NCBI GenBank assembly: GCA_963922205.1 | Contig: CAWUHX010000158.1 | Span: 62,001-126,000 of the forward strand | Reading direction: 5' to 3' | Length of the DNA stretch: 64,000 bases | From: Romanomermis culicivorax | Taxonomy: Eukaryota; Nematoda; Enoplea; Mermithida; Mermithidae | Shown here: positions 14,546 through 53,159 of the stretch, in pieces | How the letters are laid out: every line of letters starts with the position of its first letter | Position numbering within the stretch: position 1 is the first letter of the stretch | Translations under genes and position numbers: made by a program | The notes under the pieces: model-generated | The model's input: the letters and a program-made list of their open reading frames with translations, nothing else | Databases searched by the model: none | What the model was told of the DNA's origin: nothing

Positions 14546-14947
14546 TCATTCGATTTCGGTATCCCTTTTATCCAAATTTAGTCGAAATTGGGGCATAATA
14601 ACGCCCCTTTTTGGTCCTGCTAATTCGACCTTTGGCGGTGACCTTTTCAAATTTCGCAGCTGCGGTCCATCAGAGAGTGGGTTCAGATTCCCCAGGCCTG
14701 CCTCTTGCGGATCAATGGCAATCGCTGGTGGTTGATCTAAAGGTACCCCCACATCTTGGGGCGTAGAAGGCATTGCATTTTGCTGCAATAGTTGAACCGT
14801 GGCAGGAGTTTGATCTGGGATCTCTGGGTCCGGAGCAGCATGCTGTTGCTGTTCCCCATCTCCCAAATTTAGAAGATTCCCAGCACTCGCCACTCTGGGT
14901 GGTGATCTATTCAAAGTATTACCTCTCGGTATCCTTCCATTAGGCAT
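14546..14947 (-). CDS. Gag N-terminal segment / upstream ORF
   Basis: 133-aa ORF, Pro/Gln/Asn-rich and probably disordered, ending in TGA. It is in frame with the capsid ORF that starts 60 nt downstream, with a second stop (TAA) between them. Either it is the original N-terminus of gag, cut off by point mutations, or a separate leader ORF. No domain recognised. Confidence 0.5.
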   Translation of the reverse strand: MPNGRIPRGNTLNRSPPRVASAGNLLNLGDGEQQQHAAPDPEIPDQTPATVQLLQQNAMPSTPQDVGVPLDQPPAIAIDPQEAGLGNLNPLSDGPQLRNLKRSPPKVELAGPKRGVIMPQFRLNLDKRDTEIE

Positions 14948-25807: not shown

Positions 25808-26765
<958 letters not shown>

Positions 26766-27455
26766 TAAATGAATCAGTCAACGGAATCAATCATTAAAGA
26801 ATCTATGGACTATGTCTTTCATGGGAGGAACGCTTGTATCTAATGAAGGCATGTCGCTAGAATAATGATATACCTATGGGACTGTTTTCTTGGTATCTCT
26901 CCAATAGGATTCCTCATAATAGTTTTGGCCACTCACACCACTCGAAATTGTCGATTTTTCACAATGAACGTCGGAATGTATAATAATAAGGATACTCTTG
27001 TGAATAATGAACGTGCGGCAGTTCTCCCGGGTTGACTGTTATAGTAAGCTAGGTAACAACTCATTAAGAGAAGATGTCAACATGATGATGCAGCTTCACT
27101 ATCTGATTATTGATTTCCTGACTCAGTTCATAATTCTTAGAATATACAAAACCCTTCGGGTTTGGCTGTTTTCGGCTTCAGGTATTATGATGAATAGTTC
27201 GAATGCTTGATCTTAAATCTGGATCCTAATCTGGCTAATTCATGTTCCAGTTACCTCACCCATGCCTCAAATTTTTATATCATGTATTGGTGGTAAAAGA
27301 ATTTTTATCACAACTTTTATTCCACTTGTTAGATTTAAAAAAGAGATACGTCCTGACTCTTCATGCTCTGACCCTCAACTGTTCAGCCGATGAATGAACG
27401 ACAGCTAACTTGGACTATAATTCATGATCGTAAATCATTACTTTTTCCAATATAG
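26766..27455. other. No confident gene (putative intron)
   Basis: One plus ORF at 27,007-27,210 shows neither splice borders nor the module pattern. A missing class A or B exon might be hidden here, but I could not identify one. Confidence 0.4.
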
Positions 27456-31039: not shown

Positions 31040-32170
31040 GAAGCACGTTGTAAACATAGTGTAAAGTGACCGTTTCCATTGAATTCCGCATGATCAAGAA
31101 TCTGCCAACCCCAAAAAACCGTAAAAATACCTCGATTTACACAAAGAAATTTTTTCGCAGGAATTGACTGTATCCATTGAATTTCCCATGGTCAGAATCC
31201 TCTTCCCCCCAAAAATCGCAGAGATCCATTTGTATACGCTCAATATAATTTTGTGTGTAAAGTGATCACATTCATTAAAATTAAAAGCCTTACCACAAAA
31301 AATCACCAAAATACGCTTGTTTAAACTCGGGATAATTTCGTTGTGTAAATTGACCGCATTTATTGAATTCCCCGTGGTCTAAAACTCTTTGCCCCAAATT
31401 ATCACAAAAATACGCTTATTTACACCCGAGATATTTTTTCGTGTAGAATGACTGCATCCATCGAATCCCCAATGGTCAAAAACCTTTTCCTGCGAAAAGT
31501 CATGGGAGTACCTTCATTGAATTAATGATGATTTTTTTGCGTAAAGTGACCACATCCATTGAATTCGCTTCGGTCAAAACCCCTTCCACCAAAAAATCAC
31601 TAAAATACGCTTGTTTACACACCATATAATTTTTTTGCAAAATGACCACATCCTTTGAATTCCATATAATCGAAAACTCTTTACACATAAAAATCACACA
31701 AATACGCTTATTTACACCCGCAATAATTTTTTGTGTTAAGTGATCGCATTCCTTGAATTCCTCATGGTCAAAAACCCCTTCCTCAAAAAAATTACAAAAA
31801 TACGCACGTTCACACCCAGAATAATTTTTAGTGTAAAGTGACTATGTCTATCGAATTCCCAATGGTCGAAAACCTCTTCATCGAAAAATTCGCAGGAGTA
31901 TCCTAACTTACATCACTGATGATTTTTTGTGTAAAGTGACCGCGTCCATTTAATTCCTAACAGTTAAAAACCCCTTCCACCTGTAAGAGTCGCGAAAATA
32001 CGCTGGTTTACACTCGGGATAATTTTTTTGTGTAAAGTGACCGCATCAATTGGATAACCCGTGGTCGAAAACCTCTTCCACAAAAAAATAACGAAAATAC
32101 GCTTGTTTACACTCGGAATAAAATTTTGTGTAAAGTGACCACGTTCATTGAATTTCCCAAGATCGGAAAT
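31040..32170 (-). repeat. 105-bp tandem repeat array, about ten units
   Basis: Minus-orientation array of the unit seen at 1-930, the longest in the window. It joins the inverted-arm element on its left and the 5' part of the nested repeat (32,170-32,495) on its right. The order is the mirror image of 33.54-36.3 kb and 54.06-55.3 kb. Confidence 0.9.
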
Positions 32171-34019: not shown

Positions 34020-34880
34020 TTCAAATTTTTGGGCTGAAAGGGTTTTCGACCATTGGGAATTTGATGGACGCGGTCACTTTACACGAAAAATCATCCCGGG
34101 TGTAAACAAGCGTATTTCCGTGTTTTTTCAGTGGAGGGAGTTTTCGACTGCGAGGAATTCAATAGACGTCCTCACTTTACACAAAAAAATTATCCACAGT
34201 GTAAACAAGCGTACTGCCGTAATTTTCTTGTGGAGGGGATTTTCGACCACGAGGAATTCAATGAATGTGATCACTTTACACCAAAAATTATCCCGTGTGT
34301 AAACAAACGTATTTTTGTGATTTTTTGTCGGAAGAAGTTTTCGAGCACGGGGATTTTGATGAATGCGATCACTTTACACAAAAACTTATCCCAGTTGTAA
34401 ACAAACGTATTTTCGTGATTTCCCGGTGGGCGGGGTTTTCGATCACGGAGAATTCGACGAATGTGATCACCTTACAAAAAAAACTATCGCGGGTGTAAAC
34501 AATCGTTTCTTCGTGATTTTTATGGAAGGCGTTTTCGACTGCGGGTAATTCAATGGATGTGTCACTTTACACAAAAAAAATTATTCCGGATTTAACCAAG
34601 CCTGTTTTCGTGAGTTTTTGGTGGGAGGGGTTTCGACCACTGGAAATTTAATGAAAGTTATCACTTTACACACTAATTCATATTGAGTGTAAACAAATGT
34701 ATTTCTGCGATTTTTGAGGGAAGATGTTTCTGACTATGGGAAATTCAATGAACAGAGTCAGTTTACACGAAAAAAGTCATTTGTGTAAACAAAGGTATTT
34801 CTGCGATTTTTTGGGTTGAAGGATTCTAAACCATGAGGAATTCAATAGATATGGTCACCTTTCAGTATCTTTACAACGTT
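34020..34880 (+). repeat. 105-bp tandem repeat array, about eight units
   Basis: Plus-orientation copies of the unit at 1-930. Overlapping short plus ORFs here (VNKR...IFVIF...FSTTGNSM patterns) are translations of the repeat, not genes. Confidence 0.9.
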
Positions 34881-38442: not shown

Positions 38443-38448
38443 TGCCTG
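38443..38448 (+). repeat. Polinton target-site duplication, left (TGCCTG)
   Basis: Six bases directly before the element's AGTAGTATAG end, identical to those directly after its CTATACTACT end at 53,154-53,159. Six-bp duplications are typical of Polintons. Confidence 0.95.
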
Positions 38449-38966
38449 AGTAGTATAGAGGGGGGGCTCGAGCGTAAAATTCGTCCCCGACACACACAAA
38501 ACATAGGCGTTTGACTTAGAAAAAAAAGCAGCATCGTCCCCATGTACAAAGTATAGGCAAGCACAGCTAGCCTACACTTTGAACCTATTAGTCATCAGCT
38601 AGCTGCCATAAAGTTTAAACTTTTAGGCAGCCAGCTAATAATAGGGGGGAATGGGACCCCTCCCCCTCCCAAGTTTTCCTCACGCTCAGCTATGTAGCTA
38701 GCTACTACACTATTTAGTAGTTTAAAGAAGAAAGGCATGCTTGCTGCTACGTCACTATTTTAAAAAACAAGCCTTTAAAGAAGGAGTAAACATGTTCTCT
38801 ACTACTACGTCATTTTAGAAAGCATATTCTTTATGCATTTTTTATGTTTCAGTGAAGCCACATTTTTTAAGTCATCATAAACATAGCTTCGAGCTCCATG
38901 CTTACTACTACGTCACCATTTTTATGAGTACACAATTTTCTTTTATTATGAACTGGCTAAATAAAG
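38449..38966 (+). repeat. Polinton left terminal inverted repeat
   Basis: 518 bp, inverted match to 52,638-53,153 with a few percent differences, a small length difference in the G-tract near the tip and one short indel near 38,700. Contains three copies of a CTACTACGTCA-like element, at 38,748, 38,806 and 38,909. Confidence 0.97.
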
Positions 38967-39193
38967 AACAAGCACAAAGCATAAATTGGCATATTTTACA
39001 ATTTTAAAGATAAATCAATAACATAGGTCATTTCTTTTGCTAGCGTAAAGACAAAGTGTGCACCACATAAGGGTTAAATATTAGGTTTATAGTATAAGCA
39101 TTACTACTTCTTTTGTTATTATTTTTTTCATTTTCTATTTTTTTAGTTTTCAATTTTTATCATTTTTTTCTGAATTTTTCATTTCAATTTTTT

Positions 39194-39394
39194 TCATTTC
39201 GACTTAATACCAAATAGTTTGCAACCAACATAATAACTATGATCACAATGATCAGTTTTCTTTGGTGTCTTTACTCTGAGTGCTGGCAAAGGATCTGACC
39301 CCAATTCTCTAAACTTTCCTGCTTGGACGTATTTACACACAGCATAGTGACAATTATGAATAGGAACTTTTTGGCACAACCTGCAAGGCTCCAT
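39194..39394 (-). CDS. Small Cys/His-rich protein (Polinton)
   Basis: 66 aa, ATG at 39,394. CRLC near the start, CHYAVCKY in the middle and DHCDHSYYVGC near the end give six Cys and several His in zinc-finger-like spacing. Basic C-terminus. It is the last gene before the left TIR, directly downstream of the TBP-like gene. Function unknown; a small zinc-binding nucleic-acid or protein-binding role is a guess. Confidence 0.6.
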   Translation of the reverse strand: MEPCRLCQKVPIHNCHYAVCKYVQAGKFRELGSDPLPALRVKTPKKTDHCDHSYYVGCKLFGIKSK

Positions 39395-39486
39395 TGCAGA
39401 GAATGGATGTTTCAGCTTTCTATATGATATATTTATACCAGTGGGTAGTACTGTAATTGAATTATACTAACACTTGCTCATCAAGT

Positions 39487-39999
39487 TCAAAAATTGACAA
39501 TTAACTCTTTGAAGTTCTTCTGCAGTTCACCATAGGTCTTTGCTCCTGTAATAATAATTTTACCATTGTGAAAAATCAATGCACATAAGCCCCGCTTTTT
39601 AATTGTATATTTAAGTGCAGGAAATAATTCGGGAGAATAATCACATTGACCCCTATGAGTGTTATAGAATTCCTCAACATTGATACAGTGATCTAGGGCG
39701 TATGACCCAACAATATTGCACATTCTAAATTTCCTGGGTCTTGGTCGATAGCCGAGTTTGAGCAGTATTTCTGCAGCATAATCTATACTTTTCACAGCCT
39801 GCTGAGTTGCCTTAATGCCCACACATACGAGCTTGCCATTTTCATACAATAGTAGACAACATTTTGGATCATTTAGATGCCAAATTAGCGACCGAAATTT
39901 TCCCATTGTCAGTTTAGAGCCATTCAGTTTTTTAACAAGTGAGTCCAAATTTAGTTGACAGCCAAGTTCAGCTGTGACAGTAATGTTTTGTACCTGCAT
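39487..39999 (-). CDS. TATA-binding protein (TBP) homologue carried by the Polinton
   Basis: 170 aa, ATG at 39,999, ending in TGA or TAA near 39,487. It consists only of the TBP core: two direct repeats of about 80-85 residues. Repeat 1 (residues about 1-85) has GKFRSLIWHLNDPK, YENGKLVCVG and a closing KLGY. Repeat 2 (about 90-170) has NIVGS, YSPELFPALKYTI, ALIFHNGKIIITGAK. These are the hallmark positions of TBP. Of the four DNA-kinking Phe positions, three appear as Phe and one (YENGK) as Tyr. In cells TBP binds and bends TATA promoters and nucleates preinitiation complexes. The gene starts 2 bp after the penton stop and has a TATAAAATTTG motif 56 nt upstream, inside the penton gene. Similarity to eukaryotic TBP is moderate, so it is a diverged paralogue, not a recent host copy. 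It has no introns. Confidence 0.9.
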   Translation of the reverse strand: MQVQNITVTAELGCQLNLDSLVKKLNGSKLTMGKFRSLIWHLNDPKCCLLLYENGKLVCVGIKATQQAVKSIDYAAEILLKLGYRPRPRKFRMCNIVGSYALDHCINVEEFYNTHRGQCDYSPELFPALKYTIKKRGLCALIFHNGKIIITGAKTYGELQKNFKELIVNF

Positions 40000-40001
40000 T
40001 T

Positions 40002-40766
40002 TTAGAATAAACTTCGCTTTCTAAAGTGTAACTTCACAATTGTTTTACCAGTGACAAATTTTATAGGTTTGTCTTGATCTGTTCTAATTGAATTTTCTAT
40101 AGAATCAATATCTTTTACAAGTACAGGCAAGTAGTGAGGAGCTATATATATCTTATCTATAATGTCACCAAAAGCTCCCTCTATATTAACAATACGGAGG
40201 AGGGGGGCTAAAATATCACCAGCAATCTGTTGTTCAATGATGTTACAATAAACATACATAGTTTCGAGACCAGCCTTCATATCAGCAGGGTGTGCAGCAG
40301 CAATTTTCAATTTTTCAGATGAAGTTGTTTCTAGTTGTGATTTCTCAAAGCCCAACAGGTAGAGTAAAGGATCACTTAATTTTATGCTCTTGATTCTAGT
40401 CAAGTTCACTTTCAGGACAACTGCTCTGGCTAATCTCCTGTCATTATATGGAACTTTTTCCTGTTCACTCAACAACCTGATGGATTGTTGAATAGCTTCA
40501 ATTAAATCTATTATAGATTCATACCTTGTAGAAGGTACTTTTAGTAATTGCCTAGTATTGGTCTGAAGATCATAAAATTTTATTACACTATCACTAGGTG
40601 TTATATTGAACCATGTATTTGGGTAGATGAATTCACAAAGTGCACATTCCCATTCACCTTGCAAAATCAATCTATGAGGCAACCTGATACTAAAATTTGA
40701 AGCAGAGTTACTTGGATCGCTCTGAGCATTGCTCGGTAATGTTACATAAAACTGTGAAAAATCCAT
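40002..40766 (-). CDS. Polinton minor capsid (penton, single jelly-roll) protein
   Basis: 254 aa from ATG 40,766, chosen because it lies 30 nt after the TATA motif; an upstream TTG in frame is unlikely. It opens with FYVTLPSNAQ...NSASNFSIRLPHRLIL followed by GEWECALCEFIYPNTW, and closes with a basic FRKR tail, features of the conserved Polinton penton-like protein. It would occupy the five-fold vertices of the capsid. The gene is intact. It lies between the protease and the TBP gene on the minus strand, and its stop (TAA) is 2 bp from the TBP ATG, suggesting linked expression. Confidence 0.82.
   Translation of the reverse strand: MDFSQFYVTLPSNAQSDPSNSASNFSIRLPHRLILQGEWECALCEFIYPNTWFNITPSDSVIKFYDLQTNTRQLLKVPSTRYESIIDLIEAIQQSIRLLSEQEKVPYNDRRLARAVVLKVNLTRIKSIKLSDPLLYLLGFEKSQLETTSSEKLKIAAAHPADMKAGLETMYVYCNIIEQQIAGDILAPLLRIVNIEGAFGDIIDKIYIAPHYLPVLVKDIDSIENSIRTDQDKPIKFVTGKTIVKLHFRKRSLF
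40055..40065 (-). promoter_or_regulatory. TATA-like motif for the TBP gene (variant)
   Basis: TATAAAATTTG, one mismatch to the element's TATAAAAGTTG consensus, 56 nt before the TBP ATG and within the 3' end of the penton gene. Confidence 0.45.
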
Positions 40767-40795
40767 TTTTTTCAATATGTCATTATGGTAGAAAC

Positions 40796-40806
40796 TAACT
40801 TTTATA
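40796..40806 (-). promoter_or_regulatory. TATA motif for the penton gene, overlapping the protease stop
   Basis: TATAAAAGTTA. The TAA stop of the protease gene (40,802-40,804) lies at the fixed place TA[TAA]AAGTT within the motif. Confidence 0.75.
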
Positions 40807-41296
40807 TTCTATTGAGCTGTTCAAATAAAAATGCATCATAATATATGGGAGTATTTGTTCTAAAGAGACTGTTGATGAAGCCAGTGACAAATTCATCAGC
40901 ATAGCTTTGTTCCAAACTAGCAGCAATATCTCTCATACTTATACCTCTGACTATCCACACGAGAAAGTATACACATAACTGACCACATGTAGCAGTCAGG
41001 TACTGTTGAACACATTTGGTATTGCACTTGTAAGAAGTAGATATAGTCTTGATGTAATTCCTAAGCTGTTGAGGTGGTTCCAGGCCGTAACTGTCAAAAT
41101 AACAACATGCATGTTTTTTATCAACAAACAGAGCTACCCAGTGTGAACCAGGTTCATCCTGCTTGTCCAAATTTACAACCAATGCTGCGGGTACAGTGTC
41201 AAGAGGTGGTAAACAGTCTATAGGAAATACCCCATTGAAAATTTGTCTGAGAGATTGATCTCTATTGATCAAGATGTAGATTTCAGAGGTATTCAT
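40802..41296 (-). CDS. Adenain-like cysteine protease (Ulp1/adenovirus type)
   Basis: 164 aa, ATG at 41,296. Catalytic set visible: His52 in GSHWVALF, Asp67 in YFDSYG, Gln97 in VQQYLTATC and Cys103 in TCGQLC. This family matures capsid proteins in adenoviruses and Polintons. The start overlaps the major capsid protein stop by 4 nt (ATGA), hinting at coupled translation or a shared transcript. All catalytic residues are intact. Confidence 0.93.
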   Translation of the reverse strand: MNTSEIYILINRDQSLRQIFNGVFPIDCLPPLDTVPAALVVNLDKQDEPGSHWVALFVDKKHACCYFDSYGLEPPQQLRNYIKTISTSYKCNTKCVQQYLTATCGQLCVYFLVWIVRGISMRDIAASLEQSYADEFVTGFINSLFRTNTPIYYDAFLFEQLNRI

Positions 41297-42594
41297 GCAG
41301 TATAGTCATTAAAGACGTGTCTATTTTTATCGATCATAATCAAATTGTCAAATTCTGCATAAACAATAACTTCTATACCTGCGTCAGGTATCCTATCAGC
41401 AAATGTCAATTCGATACTTGTGGAACCATCTCTAATCAAGTCCCAATGTCCACTATCATCTTCGTCAAGTGTAAAATCGAAGGCAAAGTAGCACTGTCCA
41501 TTTTTAAAATTAAGTCTGCTAATTCCATTCCCTTTGTTATCTTTAGCCATGTCTAGAGTTTCAAAGAGCTGATCATACGCTCAAATATATTTGTTGTTGG
41601 CGAAACCAAGTCTTAATGGTGTTGCTGGAAAAGCTTGACCACCAGAGACGACCTTGACTTCACTTATACTGTAAAATTTAAAATTGAATGGAGATTTTTT
41701 TATTTCTCCACAATATGCATCTGCATCGACACATGCTATAATCATCCTACGGGGCAACTTACCAGTGAATAGAGTATTCAGAGGTGTAGATTGTGTTGTA
41801 CTAGCAATATGAAGATTCACCATTTGAACTCGTCTAATTGGGTACTTGACTGATGTCTTTAACATTGCTTTCTCCAGAGCCAATCCAACACTGTCGAGAA
41901 CTTCAACTTTCCTGATGAAGAGTTTCATCTGGGAAACTTCCAATTTTGCATTTTCTGCATCACCAGCTGGACACTGTAATACAAATGGATTACTATTGCG
42001 AATCAATTCCAGTTTGAGCTCAGTATTGCTGAGTAAATATCGATCTTGCATTAGAAGATCAATATGAAGAGGAGCTGTTATTTCAACTGTTTGACCATTT
42101 TCAAAGTACTTTACTCTGTCTTTAAAACCCTGGCAATCAGCAGTATCTATTTTAGGACCAGCTTCCACAGTATACAAAGAAGACTGTAAGTGACTATTTT
42201 TAGCATCAAAACCAAAATTTAAATCAGTTTCAAAGAATGCTCTGTAGGCATACTTATCCCCACTATCATGAATAAGACGACCATTCAGGAAGAGCTTCAC
42301 TTGTCGGAAAAATGCTTTACCAATCAGATTGATAGATGCAATTACTGGTGCAGCTCCACCAGCAGGAACAGTGTAAGTAATTTTCAAGGTCATGTACAGA
42401 TAATTTTTGCTAAGCTGAATCATGTGAGGATCTGGAGGTATACGAAATTCGTATGGACCATCATTTGTGATAGGATTTATCGGGTTAACTTCATCCCAGT
42501 AGCCTCGTTTAATTACTACTTGTGTGGGAGGAACAGTGAAAAAGTCCAATTCAGACTTTGTACTAATACTAGAAATTGTATCAATTAGAGCCAT
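41293..42594 (-). pseudogene. Polinton major capsid protein (double jelly-roll), one in-frame TGA
   Basis: Start ATG 42,594, 40 nt after the TATA motif; longer in-frame starts lie too close to the motif. The N-terminal piece of 337 codons contains KSELDFFTVPPTQV near the start and FRQVKLFLNGRLIHDSG and YAYRAFFETDLNFG, typical of the Polinton capsid. A TGA at 41,581-41,583 interrupts. The same frame resumes at once and runs 95 codons to the true stop, including the conserved-looking ending EVIVYAEFDNLIMIDKNR. Flanking reading frame and conservation are undamaged, so there is a single nonsense change. Without readthrough the last quarter is lost and no normal capsid is made from this copy. Confidence 0.9.
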
Positions 42595-42633
42595 GTTTTC
42601 TTCTCTTTTTCTTTGAGAATATATCATTTTTCT

Positions 42634-42644
42634 CAACTTTTATA
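42634..42644 (-). promoter_or_regulatory. TATA motif for the major capsid gene
   Basis: Exact TATAAAAGTTG on the minus strand, 40 nt before the chosen ATG. Confidence 0.75.
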
Positions 42645-42688
42645 CCTTTTGGTCTAGTCCCCAAGCCTCTCCCAGTCTGCAGGGCATC

Positions 42689-43003
42689 TCAAGCACTGTG
42701 AGCCAACTTGGAGAGTGCTGCTCGGCCGTGTTCTTCTAGAGACTCCTTTATAGATCGACCTTCTGCTAAATCTCCAGCAATATGTGCACCTGTCAATAGT
42801 GCTTGCTTACCAATATGGTCGGCAGCTGACTTAATAACAGGAATGGCCTTTCTGAATAATGATCTAAAGAAGCTTCCTAGACCTCCACCACGCTGATAGG
42901 GAGTGCCTTTGAAGCCTTTGAAACCATAGCCAGTTTGTTCAGCTTGCTCAGTGTAGTACTGAAGCCAAGTTGCATAATCTTCCGGATTAAAGTATTGTCT
43001 CAT
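42689..43003 (-). CDS. Small conserved Polinton protein, basic amphipathic
   Basis: 104 aa, ATG at 43,003, 31 nt after a TATA motif. Aromatic N-terminus (YFNPEDYATWLQYYTEQ), a Gly-rich hinge (QRGGGLGSFFRSLFRKAIPV) and a helical C-terminal half with GKQALLTGAHIAGDL. The Gly-rich/amphipathic design recalls minor core or membrane-active proteins of adenovirus-like particles. That is only a resemblance, so function is unassigned. It lies beside the capsid gene in the structural cluster. Confidence 0.72.
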   Translation of the reverse strand: MRQYFNPEDYATWLQYYTEQAEQTGYGFKGFKGTPYQRGGGLGSFFRSLFRKAIPVIKSAADHIGKQALLTGAHIAGDLAEGRSIKESLEEHGRAALSKLAHSA

Positions 43004-43033
43004 CTTTATAAGTTTGAAAAATGCTGTAAATTA

Positions 43034-43044
43034 CAACTTTTATA
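43034..43044 (-). promoter_or_regulatory. TATA motif overlapping the upstream stop codon
   Basis: Exact TATAAAAGTTG. The TAA stop of the 242-aa gene (43,040-43,042) lies within it at TA[TAA]AAGTTG. Confidence 0.8.
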
Positions 43045-43768
43045 CTTTTCCAAATTCTAACCATCTAGACCTTGGTGTAATGCTTTTGGGTGCCTTAACT
43101 TTTTTTCCATCTACAGGTCCACTCGGGGAAGCAAATGTTTCATCCCTTTCACTTCCAACATTTAACCTGGACTTATTTACAAAAAGATCTCGAGGCACAT
43201 TCTCCTTTAAGAGGTTCTTTACAAACAATTCTGACCCTATTGCTTGCTGGCGCCTCGGACCAACTCTTGCTACATCAGAAATCAAATCAACAATGTTGCT
43301 TCCACTTATTTTGGTGCCTTTCAGAATTATTTCGCCTTTATCCGACCACTCCATGTGTGGATTATCTTTAGCATAATCATATAACATTTTAGCTTGACTA
43401 TGCCACTTTTTTGGTACAATTTTCATAGTTTTTTCATACAGCACATCTTTTCTCAGGGTAACATCAACAGTGCTTTCAGCAGTGTCTGGCTTTTTTTGCT
43501 TCGGTGTTATTTCTTCCAGATCAGGAATAGGGTGTTCTGCAACAGGTTCACTAACAGTCAACTCATAAGGTCTGGTTTGATCCTGCGTAGCCTGCCTATA
43601 TCTGTGCAACACTTGATTGTATAAGATTATCTTTCTGTCAGAGGGCAATGACTTATTAGTTAAAATGTCATTCATTTCTTTATCCAAAGCAGTCATTACA
43701 TTAGCTGCTATATCCTCCCTATGACCGATGTCATGCGGTACAAGAATCATTTTATTTGTATGCATCAT
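43040..43768 (-). CDS. Conserved Polinton protein with SGSNIVDLI motif
   Basis: 242 aa, ATG at 43,768 (overlaps the preceding stop as ATGA). Residues about 40-60 are helical (KIILYNQVLHRYRQAT). Residues about 120-175 contain KAKMLYDYAKDNPH-like and EIILKGTKISGSNIVDLI, the most conserved part of this family in Polinton-like elements. Basic C-terminus. Role unknown; its place in the structural cluster suggests a virion or core component. No catalytic motif seen. Confidence 0.75.
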   Translation of the reverse strand: MMHTNKMILVPHDIGHREDIAANVMTALDKEMNDILTNKSLPSDRKIILYNQVLHRYRQATQDQTRPYELTVSEPVAEHPIPDLEEITPKQKKPDTAESTVDVTLRKDVLYEKTMKIVPKKWHSQAKMLYDYAKDNPHMEWSDKGEIILKGTKISGSNIVDLISDVARVGPRRQQAIGSELFVKNLLKENVPRDLFVNKSRLNVGSERDETFASPSGPVDGKKVKAPKSITPRSRWLEFGKV

Positions 43769-44109
43769 CTTTTTATAATTGCATCAGCTAGTAATTGTCC
43801 AGCTATTCCTAAAATTGGTGCCAACAATACAGGCAAAAATCCACCTTTTTGTTCTAGAATGTCTCGTCTTTTGCTGAGACTTGTTTTCTCATCTGCTAAT
43901 ACTCGTAAATGTCCCTTGTGGGAACTTAATTTATTCAAGATATTTTTGTCAACTTTTATATTGCCTTCGAGGAAGTTGAGTATACATTCACACAAACAAA
44001 GTATCAGTTCACGATCAGCGGTGCTAATAATAGTTTTACGTTGCTTGGGTTTAGCCTTAGCTAGTACCCTGATGTAATCAATATTATGTCTAAGACGATC
44101 ACAAGGCAT
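43765..44109 (-). CDS. Small conserved Polinton protein with hydrophobic C-terminus
   Basis: 114 aa from ATG 44,109, 26 nt after a TATA motif. The longer in-frame extension begins at a TTG and overlaps the ATPase gene, so it is not used. A basic helical body (RVLAKAKPKQRKTI) with LILCLCECILNFLEGN and SSHKGHLRVLADEK, then GGFLPVLLAPILGIAGQLL, a membrane-seeking tail. This body-plus-hydrophobic-tail pattern is common in Polintons and resembles membrane-lytic or internal virion proteins. Function unproven. Confidence 0.78.
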   Translation of the reverse strand: MPCDRLRHNIDYIRVLAKAKPKQRKTIISTADRELILCLCECILNFLEGNIKVDKNILNKLSSHKGHLRVLADEKTSLSKRRDILEQKGGFLPVLLAPILGIAGQLLADAIIKR

Positions 44110-44134
44110 TTTGACTAAACAACTGAAGAATAGA

Positions 44135-44145
44135 CAACTTTTATA
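44135..44145 (-). promoter_or_regulatory. TATA motif overlapping the ATPase stop codon
   Basis: Exact TATAAAAGTTG. The ATPase TAA (44,141-44,143) is embedded as TA[TAA]AAGTTG. Confidence 0.8.
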
Positions 44146-44764
44146 CTTTTGGCACATATATCGTGGAAAATTTTGAGAAAATATCAGCTCTGAGTCTAAG
44201 TCTATCAGGTGTTGTTTGAGAAAGATCAATAATTATATAACTGTATGGTTTAAATGTGGCATCTTCAAAAGACTCCAGAAAGTACTTTACCTTATCAGGA
44301 AACAACTGTCTTGCCAAAGTTTTTACTTGGAGTCTATCGGCAGGATTTTTCATCAAAACAAGGTACTCTGCATTTATTCTAGATGTTCTTAGACCCTCGA
44401 AGAAAACATTTTGAACAATGTGTATCACAGACACATTCATGTGATGACATCCACGAGTAAAAAGAATGTCCAGATGCTTGTTTTTTGCCATTTCCTGCTT
44501 CAGATCATCTAGTATAACAAGCTGGGGTACAGGACTGAGCTCTCTAATCAAGTTCATGTCAGGTAACCCCTGATAGAAGTTGACTCTGCCAGACAAGTCA
44601 TTGTAGACTGGCTGCTTTTCACTAAAGAACCAGTGAATATGTTCAGAAACTGGTTCGATCAAGTACTTCACATTTAGTACTAAATTCTTTACAAAGGTTG
44701 TTTTGCCCGCTTTTGTAGGGCCAGCAACAATACATGTAAAGGGGTGATTAAATTTTATAGCCAT
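44141..44764 (-). CDS. Genome-packaging ATPase (FtsK/HerA type)
   Basis: 207 aa, ATG at 44,764, 24 nt after a TATA motif. Walker A at residues 15-22 (GPTKAGKT), Walker B at about 82-87 (LVILDD), and a downstream IHIVQNVFFEG holding the Gln/Asn sensor. This family pumps DNA into capsids in Polintons, adintoviruses and related viruses. Normal length and intact motifs. The stop codon lies in the promoter of the next gene. Confidence 0.93.
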   Translation of the reverse strand: MAIKFNHPFTCIVAGPTKAGKTTFVKNLVLNVKYLIEPVSEHIHWFFSEKQPVYNDLSGRVNFYQGLPDMNLIRELSPVPQLVILDDLKQEMAKNKHLDILFTRGCHHMNVSVIHIVQNVFFEGLRTSRINAEYLVLMKNPADRLQVKTLARQLFPDKVKYFLESFEDATFKPYSYIIIDLSQTTPDRLRLRADIFSKFSTIYVPKV

Positions 44765-44787
44765 GTTTTTTTTCTTCTATAGATTCT

Positions 44788-44798
44788 CAACTTTTATA
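44788..44798 (-). promoter_or_regulatory. TATA motif for the ATPase gene
   Basis: Exact TATAAAAGTTG, 24 nt before the ATG. Confidence 0.75.
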
Positions 44799-44921
44799 AT
44801 ATGCAACATGCTGGAAATACCAGCAATTGTGCTTTGATTTTTTTTTTTAATTTTTTTCTCTTTTAATTTTTTTCTTGTCTTTTATTTTTCATCACAATAT
44901 TTAATTACAATTATCACAATA

Positions 44922-45254
44922 TTAATAGGGTATATCTATACCTTCATCATTGTATTTTCCTGTGGCTTCTGGACTCAGATTCATCCAGATCTCAAACAAA
45001 AGGGGTCCAGCACTGCAGGTTTTCATCAAACCCTCTAGCGCCTTGGCAAAATGCCAAAACCCTGTCAATTTTCTCTTACCCGTACAATGATCCAGTTCAT
45101 TGGCCACTTTAGCCAAAATCTTCCATTCATGCTTGTAGCCATCATTTATTCGATCCCAAAAATATGAGGCAAATCTCGCCACATCTTTTTGAGTATAAGG
45201 ACTTTTGAGAAAAGTGCCCATACTCAGTGCAACATTTAAAAAAATACCTTCCAT
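44922..45254 (-). CDS. Unrecognised Polinton protein, 110 aa
   Basis: ATG at 45,254, 63 nt after the TATA-like motif; the frame upstream of it starts with GTG inside the motif and is not used. It is mostly helical with aromatic residues (RFASYFWDRINDGYKHEW, TGFWHFAKALEGLMK) and two Cys, ending acidic. No signal peptide or known motif. The A/T-rich gap between it and the ATPase (44,800-44,920) holds long T-runs. Function unknown. Confidence 0.6.
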   Translation of the reverse strand: MEGIFLNVALSMGTFLKSPYTQKDVARFASYFWDRINDGYKHEWKILAKVANELDHCTGKRKLTGFWHFAKALEGLMKTCSAGPLLFEIWMNLSPEATGKYNDEGIDIPY

Positions 45255-45316
45255 TTTGAAAAAGTGACTAAACTGTAGAAGGAAAAGTTTGAAGACTGAA
45301 GAGTAAGGAGAATTCA

Positions 45317-45327
45317 CAACTTATATA
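45317..45327 (-). promoter_or_regulatory. TATA-like motif, variant
   Basis: TATATAAGTTG, one base from the consensus, upstream of the 110-aa gene. Confidence 0.6.
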
Positions 45328-45366
45328 TATAAAAAATGTTAAAGAATACTTGCAAATCACATTTGA

Positions 45367-45582
45367 CTAGTTTACTGTAGGTTTGAAGATGAGTGCCTGT
45401 CTATCAGCCAGCTGCTTCTTTAGTACAGCCGTGCCAGCTTCCTGCAATGCCTTATTGTATTCTAGACATTTTGGGCACATTTCAATAGTAAAGAATGTTT
45501 TACCCTGAGACAACTGGAAACACTCCCGTTCAGAGCTGTTCTTTTGACAAAAATAACACAGTTCAATCATTAAGAGATACAT
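45367..45582 (-). CDS. Small zinc-ribbon-like protein (Polinton)
   Basis: About 71 aa from ATG 45,582 (another ATG follows four codons later). CYFC and MCPKC, 23 residues apart, form two CxxC knuckles, the layout of a zinc ribbon such as those in TFIIB, TFIIS or polymerase small subunits. A single extra Cys lies between. The rest is helical (YNKALQEAG). A TATATAAGCAAC sequence lies about 95 nt upstream at 45,676-45,687. Without a search I cannot tell a transcription-type ribbon from an unrelated zinc protein. Confidence 0.6.
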   Translation of the reverse strand: MYLLMIELCYFCQKNSSERECFQLSQGKTFFTIEMCPKCLEYNKALQEAGTAVLKKQLADRQALIFKPTVN

Positions 45583-45753
45583 GGCTCTTGGCAAGTTTCA
45601 AGCGCAGAGTTCAATAGGAGCTTTAACTTTTTTTGACTCCATTCTAGTTAATCAAATGATTAAAATAATTTTGAAGTTGCTTATATACTGAAATATCAGG
45701 CACATGTAAAAATTTTTATACCTGCAAATCATTGTTTAATTTTCATACTGTAG

Positions 45754-46817
45754 CTATAGTTTTATCAAATCTGTCACCCAACTATTCAATTTATCTGGGT
45801 GACCCTTCCATTTAACAAAGTATTCAGTTTTCCCAGACCTTTTTCTCTTTGGTATAATCTTTTCTATAATGCAGACATCTGTAATCTCATCAACTTTCTG
45901 TAATTCTGGCTCATAAAATAACCCTGTATGACTTCTCCCAGCTGATCTTCTACCGTATATACAGGAGGATATCTAGCTTTTTGCTCACGAATCACAAAAA
46001 CTTCATCACTCCAATTGGGAGTGTAACCCTTCTCAAAAGTCCTTTTGACTTTGCTTATGTGTACCTTGTCACCAGGGACTAGTTTAAATTGTACACTGGA
46101 CTTACATTTCCTGAAAAGCTTTTCAACAATTTCAGCTTTATTCTCATCAGTAACATCAATGGGAGCAGCACCTATGGTCCTATGCCTAGTCGAGTTGTAA
46201 GAGTTTAGCAGGTGGGGTAGAATGTTTAGGTACTTGTATGTATTATTTTGGGTAAAATGATGCCACATTTTTTCCTTTAAAGTTCTATTGAACCGCTCAA
46301 CAATGCTAGCCTTAGTTTCACTAGCAGTTATGAAAAAACTAATGCCAAGTTTCTTTAATAAGGCCTGGAAAGCTTTGTTTGTAAACTCTGTACCAGCATC
46401 AGTGTGTATTTTTTGTGGCTTTCTGCCAGATTTCAAAATTGTTTGGAAGGCATGCAAAATAGATGATGTATTTTTATTTTTCAAGGGTACAGACCATGCA
46501 AATTTTGATAGGACATCTATACAATTTAAAAGAAATTTGTATCCATCATTATACCTGGCCAGTGAACTGAGGTCTGCAAGATCCATTTGCCACTGTTCAT
46601 CAATATCAGTAATTAGAACATTATTCCTGGGGTAATGGCGCCTAGCATACTTGTGTACAGTATATGTTGGCTGTTTCTGTAACCATTCCTTAACAGAATG
46701 CAGAGTGACCCTTGGATTACTAGATTTTGCCTGTCGTAACAGGTTCTGAACACTACAACACCCTGTACTTGGGTTGAAGTATATGCTTTCAAAGAGCTTG
46801 TCCATTTTTTCAAGCAT
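45754..46817 (-). pseudogene. Polinton integrase with chromodomain, frameshifted before the chromodomain
   Basis: The 317-aa ORF starts at ATG 46,817; a second ATG at 46,805 may be the used one, because the TATA motif is only 9 nt before the first. It carries the retroviral-type catalytic core: Asp79 (QMDLADL), Asp140 (HTDAGTEF), Glu174 (ASIVERFNRTLK). A C-terminal beta domain follows. After GYF (near 45,915) the frame is lost and the ORF stops at 45,864. The -1 frame then encodes a chromodomain (EYFVKWKGHPDKLNSWV), ending in TAG at 45,754. A one-base loss in a T-run explains this. Chromodomains are thought to steer insertion to certain chromatin. The core is intact but targeting is disconnected. 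Confidence 0.9.
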
Positions 46818-46825
46818 GCTGCTGT

Positions 46826-46841
46826 CAAACTTTTATTTATA
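46826..46841 (-). promoter_or_regulatory. TATA-like motif for the integrase gene, overlapping the upstream stop
   Basis: TATAAATAAAAGTTTG. The TAA stop of the membrane-protein gene (46,837-46,839) occupies the same place, TA[TAA]A, as in the other overlaps. Confidence 0.6.
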
Positions 46842-47052
46842 CATCTGCAAGATTGAATCTGACACTTTTTGTACTAGTTTTAGGTTTTTTGGTGAACAGG
46901 TTCTCCAAATATCTCCTTAACAATTTCAGTAGAGTCAGTATTGTTAGTACAGCCAATAGAGCCACACAATACCATATCTCAGTAAAAACTGTTTTCCCAT
47001 TATGCCTTTCCAGGCAAGCTAGAAAATGTTCAATAGTGTGGTTAGCATCCAT
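46837..47052 (-). CDS. Small single-pass membrane protein (Polinton)
   Basis: 71 aa, ATG at 47,052, 28 nt after an exact TATA motif. One clear transmembrane helix at residues about 27-45 (WYCVALLAVLTILTLLKLL), with a short N-terminal part and a basic Lys/Arg-rich C-terminal tail. It is the first minus-strand gene from the divergent centre. Function unknown; possibly an early membrane factor. Confidence 0.65.
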   Translation of the reverse strand: MDANHTIEHFLACLERHNGKTVFTEIWYCVALLAVLTILTLLKLLRRYLENLFTKKPKTSTKSVRFNLADV

Positions 47053-47079
47053 GTTTTTTCTTCATTTTAGAGAGCCAGC

Positions 47080-47090
47080 CAACTTTTATA
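47080..47090 (-). promoter_or_regulatory. TATA motif for the membrane-protein gene
   Basis: Exact TATAAAAGTTG on the minus strand. Confidence 0.75.
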
Positions 47091-47586
47091 GCCACCAATC
47101 AATTTTCAAAGAGAGCCAGTTGTTGTTTATTTACCTAAACTTTATTGATTGAAAACCTTCTCACTACACGAAACATTTTATGTAGAGTCTGGCATGTTTT
47201 TCCACTGGTGAAATTAACAAAGAGATCAAATTGAAAGAGCAGTGAGGTACAGTATTAGAAGCTCAAGTGATTCACATGCTCATTGTTGTGAATCAAGGCC
47301 AGCTAAGAGGCAAGAAATACTTTTATACAAAGATAGCTGGGAAAATGACTCATAAGGTGACTGCTTGTCTAAAGAAAAGTGATGTAAGCAAGAAAGTTTT
47401 TATATGTGCGTTTTGATTGAATTTGACTTGAAAGACAGATCAAAAAGTGAGATAAGAAAAAACCAGAAAAAAACAGTTTATTTCAGTATGAATCATCAGA
47501 AAAAGTGAGAAAGATGTGACATTTGATGGAACAGATCAATAGGTTTTGCTTTTCCACTAAGCCTACAGTAATCCTGCCCATAAGAG
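47091..47586. promoter_or_regulatory. Divergent intergenic region of the Polinton
   Basis: About 500 bp without ORFs, between the leftward gene cluster and the rightward polymerase gene. It holds a perfect 9-bp inverted repeat, TGATTCACA...TGTGAATCA (47,268-47,295, 10-nt loop), and extra TTTTATA-type boxes (near 47,320). A candidate control region. Confidence 0.55.
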
Positions 47587-47595
47587 TATAAAAGC
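47587..47595 (+). promoter_or_regulatory. TATA box of the polymerase gene
   Basis: TATAAAAGC on the plus strand, 26 nt before the first in-frame non-ATG start candidate (GTG 47,621). Confidence 0.65.
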
Positions 47596-47620
47596 AAAAA
47601 AATTTGAGGAAAGCTCATTT

Positions 47621-50600
47621 GTGATTTTTATCAAGTTAAAGAAAGGTCGGATTGTTGAAAGGGATGTTAAAAATTTTTTGTGCAACAAATGTGGAAGAAG
47701 CTTTGGTGAAAAACGATATTTGAATGGACATATGGCTGCATCACACGAAGGGAGACGATTCAAATGCCCTCGATGTGGCTCAATGTTTACACAAATGAAA
47801 GGATTGAAGAATCATTACCAGAAACAACATCAAGAATTCAATTGCCTGTATTGTGGAACCAGCTTTTGCAACCAACAAGCATTATTTTCCCCTATCCATA
47901 GTAGTAGCTGCTTGATGGTCAAACCAGAAGAGGGAAATTCAATGGAATTGATGGATGAAAAACCAACTACAAGTGGACTTATGATTCCGGAAGATGAAGA
48001 AACACCAATGGAGCTGAGTGCATACCCAGAAGAAATGCAGAGAGAAATCAATAATTATTGGCGACTTATTCGAACCAATCAGTCCACTTCCAACCTACTG
48101 GAGCATATTTACAATTATAGATGGGCAGCTACCAATGGAGACCTTACAAGGATGATTTACAACATTTATCAGTCAGAAAAGGAATGTTTTCGTATTGATG
48201 CTGCAATTGGATGCTTGTTGAAAAATCGAGAAACAGGTGAGTACAAATATTGGTATGCATGCCAGAATAACTATACACTGTTAAACCATCCTGTTTTGAT
48301 CAAAAATGGGGAGGATGTGCAGCAATTAACTGGGACTATGAAAAAAATTGATTTTGAAGAAAAATTTACACGCCCTGATACAAAATGGTCTCTTGCCCTC
48401 ATCACAAATGTTGAATTCTATGTCATGCCACAAAAAAGCTTTGTGGCTGGTTGCAAAGACTTCCATTTACCTGAACCGCTCGTCTACCAGACCCACAATA
48501 TTATTGGTATGACCCAAGATGGCCAGAGAAACAGATTTAAAGATAATCTTTGTCTTTTTCGTTGCTTAGCCCAAGGAATTTTTGGCAGTTTTGAAGATAG
48601 AAGGCGTGTTTTTGAGCTCTTTGTAAAGTATTGCCAAAAGAAGAATATCCCATCAGTTGTAGATACCTTTTCCGGGGTTCCATACACAGATTTGGAAATG
48701 ATTGAGAAATTATTCCTCATTGATATACAGGTTTATCACTATGATCTTGCTAAAAATATGGCCATTTGCTGGAAAAATGTTATTCCACAATATGAAAAAC
48801 TTATAAATTTGGATGTTTCATTTGATGACAGTAGGCGTGCCCACTATAGTTATATTGTCAATATAGATCAATATGCAAAATGGTATTCTTGTATTTTTTG
48901 CAGTCGTCTCTTTAGAAAACGTGAAAAACTTAATGAGCATACAAAAGACCATTGCCACGAGGGTAAAACAATCCATAAATTTCCTGGTGGTGTATATACA
49001 GTGAAAAAATCCGTTTTTGAACAGCTAGATGAAATAGAAATTTTTGTAGATAGAACATATCGTTTGTGTCCCTTTTATGCAGTTTTTGACTTTGAAGCCC
49101 TTCTTGTAAAAACTTCTAAGCAAACATCTGATAAATTAACTTTTGTTGCTCAGCACCAACCTGTATCATGTGCTATAGCAACTAATATTTCTGGATTTTC
49201 TCCAATTTGTTTTGTTGAAGATGATCCAGATGTTTTGGTCCAAAAAATGGTGGGTCATCTAGAACTGATTAGCTTCAGACAAAATGAAATTTTGACTAAT
49301 CAGTATAACTCAGTATTCCAACGTTTAGAAGGTATGATAGAAAGTTGTAAGGCCTACATTGAAGAACTGTATGATCAAAAAAAAGATTCCAGGCGGGAAA
49401 AGGGACACCTCAACTCAATTATTGCAATCAAGACACGCCTTGAGAGGTACTGTTCCCAGCTCACTTGTTTGGGTTTTAATTCAGGAAAATATGATATTAA
49501 CTTGATAAAAAGAAGTATTTTCCCAAAACTTGTCCAGCAAGTGCGAGAAAATGGGGAAGGACCATGGCCAAAAGCAATTTTGCGAAATGGGTCCTTCTTA
49601 TGCCTTTCTACCAAAAGTCTCAGATTCTTGGATATCTCCCTGTATTTAGCCCCTGGTTTTAGTTTAGACACCTTTATGAAGGCTTATGGGGCATCCCTTA
49701 GCAAAGCCAAATTCCCCTATGAGTATTTGGATGCCTTTGAAAAGCTTTATGAAAAATCACTGCCACCCCCACAAGCATTTTACAGTTCTTTGAGAAAAGA
49801 ATCCATTTCTGATGAGGACTATCAACTATGCCAAAAGTACTGGAGAGAGAATGGAATGAAAAACTTGAAAGATTTTTTAATTTTTTACAATCTTCGGGAT
49901 GTTGTGCCTTTTCTAGAAGCTGTTACAATGATGATGAGGCTCTATTGGGACCAATTTGGAATCGATATTTTCAGAGAAGCAATGTCTCTGCCTGGGGTTA
50001 CTGAGAGATACCTGTTCAAAAGCATTAAAGACTCACACTTTGCCCTCTTTTCTGAAAATTCAAAAGATCTTCATTATTCCTTAAAATCCAGTATGAGGGG
50101 TGGTCTGGCGATGGTGATGACCCGACTGGCAATCAAGGATAAGACATTCATTCGGAATAATCCCAAAAAACTAGTCAAATCAATAATTGGGCTTGATTTT
50201 AATGCCCTCTACCTCTGGGCGCAGTCTATGCCTACACCCACAGGATTTTTTGATCAGTGGGTCTGTCAGGGTGAAAAATTTCAAAAAGTAAACAGTTCTA
50301 AAAAAGTTTCTGTTGAATGGTTAGAAAAGATGAGTTGAGAATGTGGCCATTTCATTCAACACCTTGGAAATGGCAAAGAAAAGTGCATAGGCCTGAGGCA
50401 TTTACCTGTAGATGGTTACTGCCAGGACACCAACACCATATATGAATTTTATGGGTGTTACTGGCATTGTCACAACTGCAACTTCAGCAAGCCAAATAAA
50501 CAAAAGGATAGCAATGATGAGCATGCTAAAAGAGAGGAAAAGGAGGCATATATAAAGTCACTAGGCTACAACTTGGTAACCATCTGGGAGTGCCAATGGG

Positions 50601-51844
50601 ACAACCAGCGCCAAGCTTACATTAATCAAAGCGCTAAATTGTGTCCAAATTTTTTTAGAAAATTTCAATTTCAAAAATACATTAATAAAAATCTTATGGA
50701 AAAATCAATTACAGATGGCTCTGTTTTTGGGTTTGCAAAAGTCGATATTTCTACACCAGACCATCTAAAAGAAAAATATACCGATTTTCCTCCAATAATA
50801 AAGCATGCAGAAGTGGGCCGAAATGATGCTGGTGACTTCATGAAGCAGTATGCTGAAAATACCAACCAGCTAAGACAACCAAGAAAAAACCTTATCAGTA
50901 GTTACTTTGGCAAAGAGATCATGGTTTCTACACCCATGATCCAATTTTTGGTAAAACATGGTCTGATACTTGATAAGGTCCATGAAGTTATTCAATTTGA
51001 CGAGGCAACACCTTTTGAAGCATTCCGTGACAAAGTTACCAAGCACAGACAGGAAGGAGATACCAATCCCGAGCTAGCAATGATTGCTGATACGTTTAAA
51101 TTACTTGGCAACACAGGATATGGAAAAACATTGACCAATAAGGAGAGTCATATGGACATCTTCTACGTAGATTATGAAAAGGCTGCTGAGCTAGGCCTCA
51201 GCCCTTACATCAAGAAAATAAAATGCATAACTGAAAAGTGTTATGAAGTCCACATGCGGAAAAAAGAAATTGTTTTAGACTTGCCCATTGTAGTGGGCCT
51301 TTCAGTCTATAATTGGGCAAAGGTCAGAATGTTGGAGTTCTTCTATGATGTGCTCCAAAAGTATTTTGACCCTGCTGATTATCAGTGTATGGAAACAGAC
51401 ACTGACAGCATCTACCTGGCAATATCAGCTGAACACCTTTTGGATATTGTAAAGCCAGAACTAAAAAGTGAATTTTTGACTCAAGTCTACCCGAATTGGT
51501 TTGTGACAAACCCTGAACAGAAACGAACCCCTGGATTACTGAAAGAAGAATGGCGTGGAACAGCTATGTGTTGTTTGTCTGCCAAAACATACATTGGGGT
51601 CGGAGAAGGTGAGAAAAAGACAAGTTGTAAAGGTCTCAGGAAAAAAATAAATGATCTCACCTTTCAAAAATATCTTTCTGTTCTGGAGACCAAGGAACCC
51701 TGGAATGGTGAAAATATAGGGTTCAGGTTGCAGGGAGACAGCAAAATATGGACGTACATGCAACAGAAGCAGGGTCTCCCATTCCTTTATGTAAAGAGGA
51801 AGGTCTTAGATGATGGCATAACAACTGTGCCATTGGACTTATGA
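47621..51844 (+). pseudogene. Protein-primed family B DNA polymerase, one in-frame TGA
   Basis: 1,408 codons in a single frame, broken only by TGA at 50,336-50,338. N-terminus: three C2H2-like zinc fingers (residues about 22-90) and a further CxxC...H...H near 430. Exonuclease motifs: FDFEA at about 490, FNSGKYD at about 620, YNLRD at about 757. Polymerase motif A (DFNALYLWAQSMP) at about 857 lies just before the TGA. After it come a Cys/His-rich strand and WECQW, motif B (GNTGYGKT, near 51,110), motif C (DTDS, near 51,400) and a final KTY-like region (AKTYIG). Such enzymes replicate Polintons from a protein primer. No ATG exists between the upstream stop (47,558) and residue 38, so the start codon looks lost (GTG 47,621 in its place) or non-AUG. 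Without readthrough the catalytic palm is severed. Confidence 0.92.
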
Positions 51845-52637
51845 ATATTTTTTATTATTGTTTTTTTATTATTCTCATATCTTTTCTTATTCTCATATTT
51901 TGCTATATCAGCTCCTACAATGTAGGAGTCATTATTTTTTTACATATTTATTTATCATTTTTATGTGTTTGTATTTGTCTGTTTTTATATGTTCATGTAT
52001 TTGTCTTGCTTCTGCTATGCAGAAGTAAAGCTTCTACAGGGTACTAGGTGCATGGTGAGGAGCCAATGACGGCCTAGGGTCAGGCAGAAGCCAGCAGTGT
52101 AATGGCGCCAGGTGCATGGTGAGAAAGCCAATGACGGCCTGGAGTTGGACACTGCGAGTCATACTATGTATGGCGGGTGTCTTCTGTAAAAGGGAGGCAC
52201 TTGGTGTCACATATGTACAGGCCTCCACGTGGCTGACACTGGGGCTGGCCCAAAAGGTCAGTGCTAACGGGTACATAATAACTATAACATACATTCATAT
52301 ATAATACACAACTAACAAAAAAAAGAAAATGTTGGTGTAGAAAAAAAAACTTATTGGCAAGGTTGCTACATAAGATAATGGTAAACTAAGTTAAATTTAA
52401 CCAATTTTTTTGGTAGGAAAAAGGTAATTCATACAGTGATGAGCAGATAACATGAAAAAAGTAGACTAGTTGTAGAGTACTACATGATTGTTATGTGGTG
52501 GGAGAAAATGAGCTTATTGATTGCTGAAGAAATATACTACTTTATGCTCGGTACTTTGTGCTTGTTTTGTTGACTGAAAAAAACGACATCGGTTGTAAGT
52601 AGAAGTATAAAAAAACAAAACATGACATTGAAAGGTG
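51845..52637. other. Polinton 3' region, no confident gene
   Basis: T-rich stretch first (a 68-aa hydrophobic plus ORF starting in an ATGA overlap with the polymerase stop, probably composition-driven). Then comes a more GC-rich patch at 52,040-52,270 with a diverged direct repeat of about 30 bp (AGGTGCATGGTGAG..AGCCAATGACGGCCT, copies near 52,048 and 52,109), then A/T-rich DNA to the TIR. Confidence 0.5.
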
Positions 52638-53153
52638 CTTTATTTAACCAGTCCATAATAAAAGAAAATTGTGTATTCATAAAAATGGTGACGTAGTAGT
52701 AAGCATGGAGCTCGAAGCAATGTTTGTGATGACTGAAAAAAAATGTGGCTTCACTAAAACATAAAAAATGCATAAAGAATATGCTTTCTAAAATGACGTA
52801 GTAGTAGAGAACATGTTTACTCCTTCTTTAAAGGCTTGTTGTTTTTTAAAATGGTGACGTAGTAGCAAGCATGCCTTTCTTGTTTAAACTACTAAATAGT
52901 GTAATAGCTGACCATGAGGAAAACTTGGGAGGGGGAGGGGTCCCATTCCCCCCTATTATTAGCTGGCTGTCTAAAAGTTGAAACTTTATGGCAGCTAGCT
53001 GATGACTAATAGGTTCAAAGTGTAGGCTAGCTGTGCTTGCCTATACTTTGTACATGGGGACGATGCTGCTTTTTTTTCTAAGTCAAACGCCTATGTTTTG
53101 TGTGTGTCGGGGACGAATTTTACGCTCGAGCCCCCCCCCCCCTCTATACTACT
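52638..53153 (-). repeat. Polinton right terminal inverted repeat
   Basis: 516 bp, inverted partner of 38,449-38,966. TGACGTA elements at 52,689, 52,794 and 52,855 mirror those of the left TIR. It ends CTATACTACT. Confidence 0.97.
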
Positions 53154-53159
53154 TGCCTG
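53154..53159 (+). repeat. Polinton target-site duplication, right (TGCCTG)
   Basis: Identical to 38,443-38,448. Confidence 0.95.

Follow-up and report, generated by a model that had tools for sequence, protein, structure and literature searches.

TATA-binding proteins (TBPs) encoded by viruses have precedents among giant viruses, mirusviruses, herpesviruses and viruses of archaea. In the nucleocytoviruses, African swine fever virus (ASFV) B263R and the TBP-like factors of poxviruses have been described (PMC7458399, PMC7221094); ASFV encodes its own RNA polymerase (PMC7458399, PMC7221094), and almost all viruses with a TBP are described as also having a TFIIB-like protein (PMC7221094). TBP has been reported in 59% of mirusvirus genomes (PMC10132985; see also PMC12768974), nuclear reproduction has been predicted for the intron-rich mirusviruses (PMC10132985, PMC12768974), and TATA-binding proteins have been named in Cymbomonas elements that putatively derive from mirusviruses (PMC10675990). 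The herpesvirus TBP-like proteins BcRF1, ORF24 and UL87, which were identified in silico through structural homology, recruit host RNA polymerase II (Pol II) to viral promoters with TATT boxes, together with five further viral factors (PMC4893493). The haloarchaeal tailed viruses HRTV-9 and HJTV-2 have a TBP gene annotated in their genome records.

Within the window, by which we mean the whole 64,000-nucleotide stretch analyzed here, we found an element that resembles Polintons (Mavericks) and adintoviruses in its terminal inverted repeats (TIRs), 6-bp target site duplication (TSD), AG...CT ends, DNA polymerase B (PolB), rve integrase, Pox_A32-type ATPase, C5-type protease, major capsid protein (MCP) and penton, and that differs from them, as described, in having a TBP gene. 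A full-text literature search for Polinton, Maverick or adintovirus combined with TBP, TATA-binding, TFIID or TATA box returned no Polinton TBP, and a term search of Polinton, PLV and adintovirus papers, other than the paper that introduced adintoviruses and the Polinton review of 2015, returned no TATA or TBP save in references on other matters. As far as the accounts cited above describe them, the nucleocytovirus TBPs share with the window protein a virus-encoded TBP fold in which the DNA-binding Phe residues are largely kept and host-contact positions have diverged; unlike in ASFV and most viruses with a TBP, neither a viral RNA polymerase nor a TFIIB was seen in a Pfam scan of the element's ORFs. 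Mirusviruses, likened here by their published description, also provide a TBP in a eukaryotic DNA virus, although they are portrayed as large and herpesvirus-related. By analogy with the herpesvirus TBP-like proteins, the element may recruit host Pol II to its own promoters; unlike BcRF1, ORF24 and UL87 as reported, however, it encodes a plain TBP, and the boxes nearby are TATAAAAG. The HRTV-9 and HJTV-2 proteins group with archaeal TBPs and are 22-23% identical to the window TBP, and the cellular paralogues TBPL1/TRF2 and TBPL2, which have the same fold, are 23% (TBPL1, on a provisional sequence) and 31% (a TBPL2) identical to it.

The Polinton copy and its TBP gene

The Polinton copy spans positions 38449-53153 and has AG...CT termini. 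Its TIRs of ~520 bp are identical at 494 of 509 aligned bases (22 gap columns), and TIRs of hundreds of bp with a 6-bp TSD are Polinton hallmarks; the core set of PolB, rve integrase, packaging ATPase, protease and MCP is also present (Table 1). The first-pass annotation had described an element with intact TIRs and TSD. Both are indeed there, but the copy is not fully intact, as the MCP and PolB genes each contain one in-frame TGA: the MCP frame continues to 41293 past the TGA at 41581-41583, and the PolB pieces are split by the TGA at 50336-50338. In many copies from the same genome the MCP frame is open over ~448 codons. The penton gene, which is also present in own-genome copies, presumably encodes a penton as judged from gene position and motifs, and has no Pfam match. 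The 71-aa ORF, which lay below the size limit of our first ORF listing, was found via a TATAAAAGTT box.

Table 1. Features of the Polinton copy in window coordinates.
Feature	Position	Strand	Remarks
TSD, left copy	38443..38448		TGCCTG, read from sequence
Left TIR	38449..38969	+	
ORF66 (66 aa, Cys/His-rich, after TBP)	39194..39394	-	no Pfam match; TATA 43 bp upstream
TBP gene	39487..39999	-	170 aa, two TBP repeats
Penton/minor capsid protein (presumed)	40002..40766	-	36% and 33% (two stretches) to L001 gene
TATAAAAT before TBP	40058..40065	-	66 bp before start codon
TATAAAAGTT box of penton gene	40797..40806	-	
Adenovirus-type protease	40802..41296	-	Peptidase_C5 8.4e-05; no TATA box (sole case among 11 genes)
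MCP, open part	41581..42594	-	231 relatives
TATAAAAGTT box of MCP gene	42635..42644	-	
p113, small capsid protein (presumably pVI-like)	42689..43003	-	40% identical to L001 counterpart
TATAAAAGTT box of p113	43035..43044	-	
p242, conserved Polinton protein	43040..43768	-	28% identical to L001 counterpart
p154, conserved small protein	43765..44109	-	50% identical to L001 counterpart
TATAAAAGTT box of p154	44136..44145	-	
Packaging ATPase	44141..44764	-	Pox_A32 1.9e-06
TATAAAAGTT box of ATPase gene	44789..44798	-	
p132 (ORF)	44922..45254	-	matches in L017, L020, L023, L035
Retroviral-type integrase	45864..46817	-	rve 1.1e-13
71-aa membrane-protein-like ORF	46837..47052	-	38 bp after TATAAAAGTT box; no Pfam match
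TATAAAAGTT box of 71-aa ORF	47081..47090	-	
PolB, two open pieces	47561..51844	+	DNA_pol_B_2 4.8e-08 on first piece
TATAAAAG before PolB	47587..47594	+	
Right TIR	52635..53153	-	
TSD, right copy	53154..53159		TGCCTG, read from sequence

The TBP gene is, as annotated at first, intronless and lies at the coordinates given; its ORF starts with ATG, and its product matches Pfam PF00352 at 3e-37 (126.8 bits; cut-off 22.9). Two tandem TBP repeats span the whole protein, TBPs in the PDB match residues 2-165 (4.5e-28), and both the ELFPAL and IFHNGK signatures are present. With positions numbered after the TBP literature, each of the four kinking positions holds an aromatic residue (F, Y, F, F), i.e., three Phe and one Tyr as previously noted. 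An AF2 model predicts a TBP saddle, whose absence the annotation had set as a refutation; since the input alignment included 29 TBPs from a database search, the TBP fold was favored. With the window TBP as the single query sequence, a protein search gave no match at E 1e-6. In a further protein search 7905 TBPs were scored, and the best 120 listed are 31-35% identical; among these 120, the TBP-named ones are cellular and many are without a TBP name. Among the best 50 BFVD fold matches no viral protein is more than 24% identical to the window TBP, and the second-best, A0A5P9U4S6, is an unnamed 189-aa viral protein with 24% identity.

TBP genes elsewhere in the genome and on another contig

A PF00352 search of the genome, in which the best 150 half-domain matches of 438 candidates were scored, revealed at least 110 TBP places on 84 contigs: the window's own, the host TBP (two exons, 88% identical to Ixodes TBP) and 108 more. 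The closeness of the host TBP to that of Ixodes makes an animal host most probable. We read 25 further places, hand-picked and thus non-random, in stretches of 5-10 kb, and noticed other Polinton genes at 23 of them. In the first set, each of the 19 places had between two and nine further genes of the element, ORF66 included, and the gene order, where complete, was MCP-protease-penton-TBP-ORF66. In the second set, other element genes were found at L039, L041 and L042, and at L037 penton was matched weakly (24%, 37 bits) and PolB was matched too; no other element gene was found in 6 kb at L038 or L040, and L038 has PolB-like ORFs by eye only, without a Pfam match. Nor was another element gene found at L011-L014, where 3.2 kb were read (L011 is the place of L037). 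Taking the window TBP as family A, the other families are 66% (B), 34% (C), 33% (D) and 30% (E) identical to it, family E being L038 only, whose place in a Polinton is putative. The annotation had suggested looking for the gene next to penton in other elements, and it does adjoin the penton gene in many related ones. Nested insertion of a separate TBP element is unlikely, because the TBP gene keeps its place by penton.

Tallying from the MCP side, we found TBP within 6 kb downstream of MCP at 37 of the 49 places with an A-like MCP, 8 of the 11 with a B-like one, 5 of the 6 with a C-like one and none of the 8 with a distant one (MCP 46-51%), all lower bounds. The tally comprises 74 places from 127 matches listed (116 of 1493 candidates scored), with shorter matches left out, split matches joined and TBP taken from the scored list only. 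The counts are lower bounds because, of the 24 MCP places without a listed TBP, C345, when read, has one and two others have one within 15 kb. Seven of the distant MCPs (C3:3292466, C3:621389, C5:158747, C5:175949, C6:996345, C6:2204583 and C10:1137186) have scores that are equal or almost so, which points to recent spread; the one copy of this group that was read has no TBP. ORF66, which is also found in family A and family B loci, is 89-100% identical in L015, L016, L021, L026, L033 and L044 and 52-62% in others, whereas TBP is only 63-66% identical in L015, L016 and L044, which hints at exchange between families.

Outside this genome, an MCP-alignment scan of GTDB contigs yielded a sole locus, L001, the 11.6-kb contig JAJRVU010000309.1. 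By homology to the window it has genes for ATPase, integrase, penton, MCP and protease, along with three others, although its Pfam matches to these element genes are below curated cut-offs, and it has a TBP ORF (2.2e-45) divergent to the ATPase gene. Its genes are 28-52% identical to their window counterparts (TBP: 35%). Since the contig carries Polinton genes yet is binned in a Planctomycetota MAG, we set a bacterial origin aside and read it as probably a eukaryotic contaminant of the MAG. IMG/VR scans with the TBP, the MCP, a PolB piece and the integrase gave no match, and a PELFP-type pattern returned L002-L006, five loci in which the profile showed no TBP.

The family A TBP is under purifying selection (Nei-Gojobori, 55 pairs: mean dS 0.228, mean dN 0.036, ratio 0.16; 11 of 15 copies, L022, L023, L032 and L035 being left out), with single pairs reaching a dN/dS of up to 0.56 at a dS of 0.018. 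Two of four A-B pairs gave 0.12 at dS >2, and the other two were saturated; the family C pair L039-L025 gave 1.0 on few changes. The penton gene, used as a control, gave 0.06-0.32 (one of six copies, L019, was dropped for one stop). Three trees with few sequences and long branches join the window TBP to that of L001 (97/91, 96/87 and 91/86), and in a larger tree families A-E form a group (90/83). A single clade of Polinton TBPs, L001 included, was not rejected (p-AU 0.50), which falls short of proof. TBPL1 (provisional sequence; long branch) falls among the cellular TBPs, apart from those of Polintons. The annotation had asked whether the gene might be a copy of the host's; we reject a host TBP retrocopy, since the window TBP is far from host TBP (31% identity). 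An unused cellular retrocopy, recently caught and carried as a passenger, would account for an intronless gene, but this identity, the dN/dS of 0.16 in family A and the place beside penton across families make it highly improbable.

TATA boxes and contact residues

The motif TATAAAAGTT occurs seven times in the element, compared to 0.1 in shuffles, and twice in the surrounding 49 kb. Of the 11 minus-strand genes, 10 have a TATA[AT]A[AT] box at a distance of 24-77 bp ahead of the start codon, where 1.4 are expected from random positions in the same stretch and none of 5000 sets did as well; the start codons were picked with homologues and boxes in view, and a mechanical rule (first ATG of each frame) placed a box at 8 of 11 genes. 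In related copies across loci, a box was present upstream of penton (23/23), MCP (14/14), p154 (12/12), ORF66 (19/19), p113 (12/15), ATPase (4/5) and p132 (1/1), as well as TBP (17/29) and protease (2/20). In L001 it was present at only 4 of 10 genes, a count reached by 55 of 5000 random sets. A bacterial promoter scan gave shuffle-level results.

As a TBP-less control we used one Polinton copy on C3 (MCP group 46%), which is flanked by inverted repeats of ~400 bp (86%) and whose two spanning pieces gave no TBP profile match. Under the one rule, boxes were found at 2 of 10 ORFs of its middle piece, the part that the count covers, vs. 8 of 11 in the window element (Fisher p 0.03). Without two doubtful ORFs, an inner piece of a broken MCP and an ORF in the TIR, the comparison becomes 2 of 8 vs. 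8 of 11 (p ~0.07, hand count). We take TATAAAAG to be a good site for cellular TBP as well, so that host TBP could serve the element's boxes.

We compared 12 TBPs at contact positions assumed after the TBP literature. On this list, kinking and base-contact positions are kept at 10 of 14 in the window TBP, vs. 34 of 127 other positions (p 0.0014), and at 10 of 14 vs. 53 of 127 in the L001 TBP (p 0.047); of the 12 phosphate and sugar contacts, the window TBP retains only 4. All 12 proteins have the kinking Phe at three or four of the four positions, with all four in L001, L039 and families D and E, while F116 is changed to Y in families A and B, and V71 to T and T124 to V in families A-C. A Phe-to-Tyr change at a kinking position has been reported to influence TATA binding (PMC7221094). 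For the glutamates that contact TFIIB and the basic regulator face we followed Ravarani et al. (PMC7221094). E188 is retained in 11 of the 12 TBPs; E186 is lost in families A-C and retained in D, E and L001. The face for TFIIA, NC2, Mot1 and TAF1 is changed in all six lineages examined (A-E and L001), with at most 2 of 7 yeast residues kept in any of the 12 TBPs and 1 of 7 in the window. Conservation of the window face does not differ significantly downward from that of the remaining protein (p 0.68), and the face of Pyrococcus TBP is likewise kept at 1 of 7. No Pfam TFIIB match appeared among the element ORFs scanned, an absence that is a weak sign.

Proposed function and alternatives

The first-pass annotation had proposed that the element brings a dedicated initiation factor to its own promoters. 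Judged from sequence, this is supported, and the proposal becomes likelier because TATA boxes stand before nearly every element gene and are scarce in one TBP-less copy. We consider it likely that the gene encodes a functional virus-type TBP, long carried by these elements, that binds the element's boxes, starts Pol II with host TFIIB and is deaf to host regulators. We infer that the protein would bind the TATAAAAG(TTG) boxes before the element's own genes and, once bound, would nucleate Pol II initiation with host TFIIB, while its changed basic face may leave it deaf to TFIIA, NC2, Mot1 and TAF1, which load or evict host TBP. Several results given above weigh against this reading: the possible use of the boxes by host TBP, the loss of E186 in families A-C, the few phosphate and sugar contacts, the Tyr at a kinking position, a basic face that is no exception within the protein and is matched by Pyrococcus, the sparse boxes of L001 and of the TBP and protease genes, the single control copy, and the dN/dS of 1.0 in a family C pair.

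The changed regulator face in all six lineages is also what one would expect of a DNA-binding, unregulated, non-TFIID form acting as a decoy or dominant-negative TBP, which would occupy host TATA boxes or tie up TFIIB, shut down host transcription and favor the element indirectly. We regard such a decoy as unlikely, as it leaves unexplained both why the TATA boxes of the element's own genes are kept in several families and why one TBP-less copy is mostly without them. An architectural role, in which the protein bends DNA for genome packaging, replication or integration and not for transcription, would fit the kinking Phe residues of all 12 TBPs, the loss of E186 in families A-C and a gene that adjoins penton; the retention of E188 in 11 of 12 TBPs and the TATA boxes, which fit transcription, speak against it, and we find it quite improbable.

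If the element TBP is the initiation factor that we favor, its presence in a 15-kb animal-genome element suggests that a single gene can be enough for a Polinton to seize the opening step of Pol II initiation. More tentatively, and with considerable doubt, animal Polintons may be of two transcription types that coexist in one genome, one with a regulator-blind TBP of its own and a box ahead of almost every gene and one TBP-less and box-less, and the N-lobe contact residues T71/V124 (families A-C) with the extended TATAAAAGTTG could constitute an insulated promoter code in a host nucleus that involves no viral RNA polymerase. Elements with their own TBP and elements with none provide two promoter systems that occur naturally side by side, in copy numbers large enough for statistics, and bear on how bamfordviruses began collecting transcription genes.

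The window also holds repeats of other kinds. Remains of a Ty3-type retroelement (4922-14947, minus strand) give weak rve matches along with matches to a gag-type aspartyl protease and an integrase zinc-binding domain. The long ORFs at 25812-26774 rest on a (TAAA)n array of 963 bp (241 copies, 96% matches), and a satellite unit of 96-98 bp forms four look-alike arrays (59-893, 31289-32160, 34038-34775 and 54565-54970).
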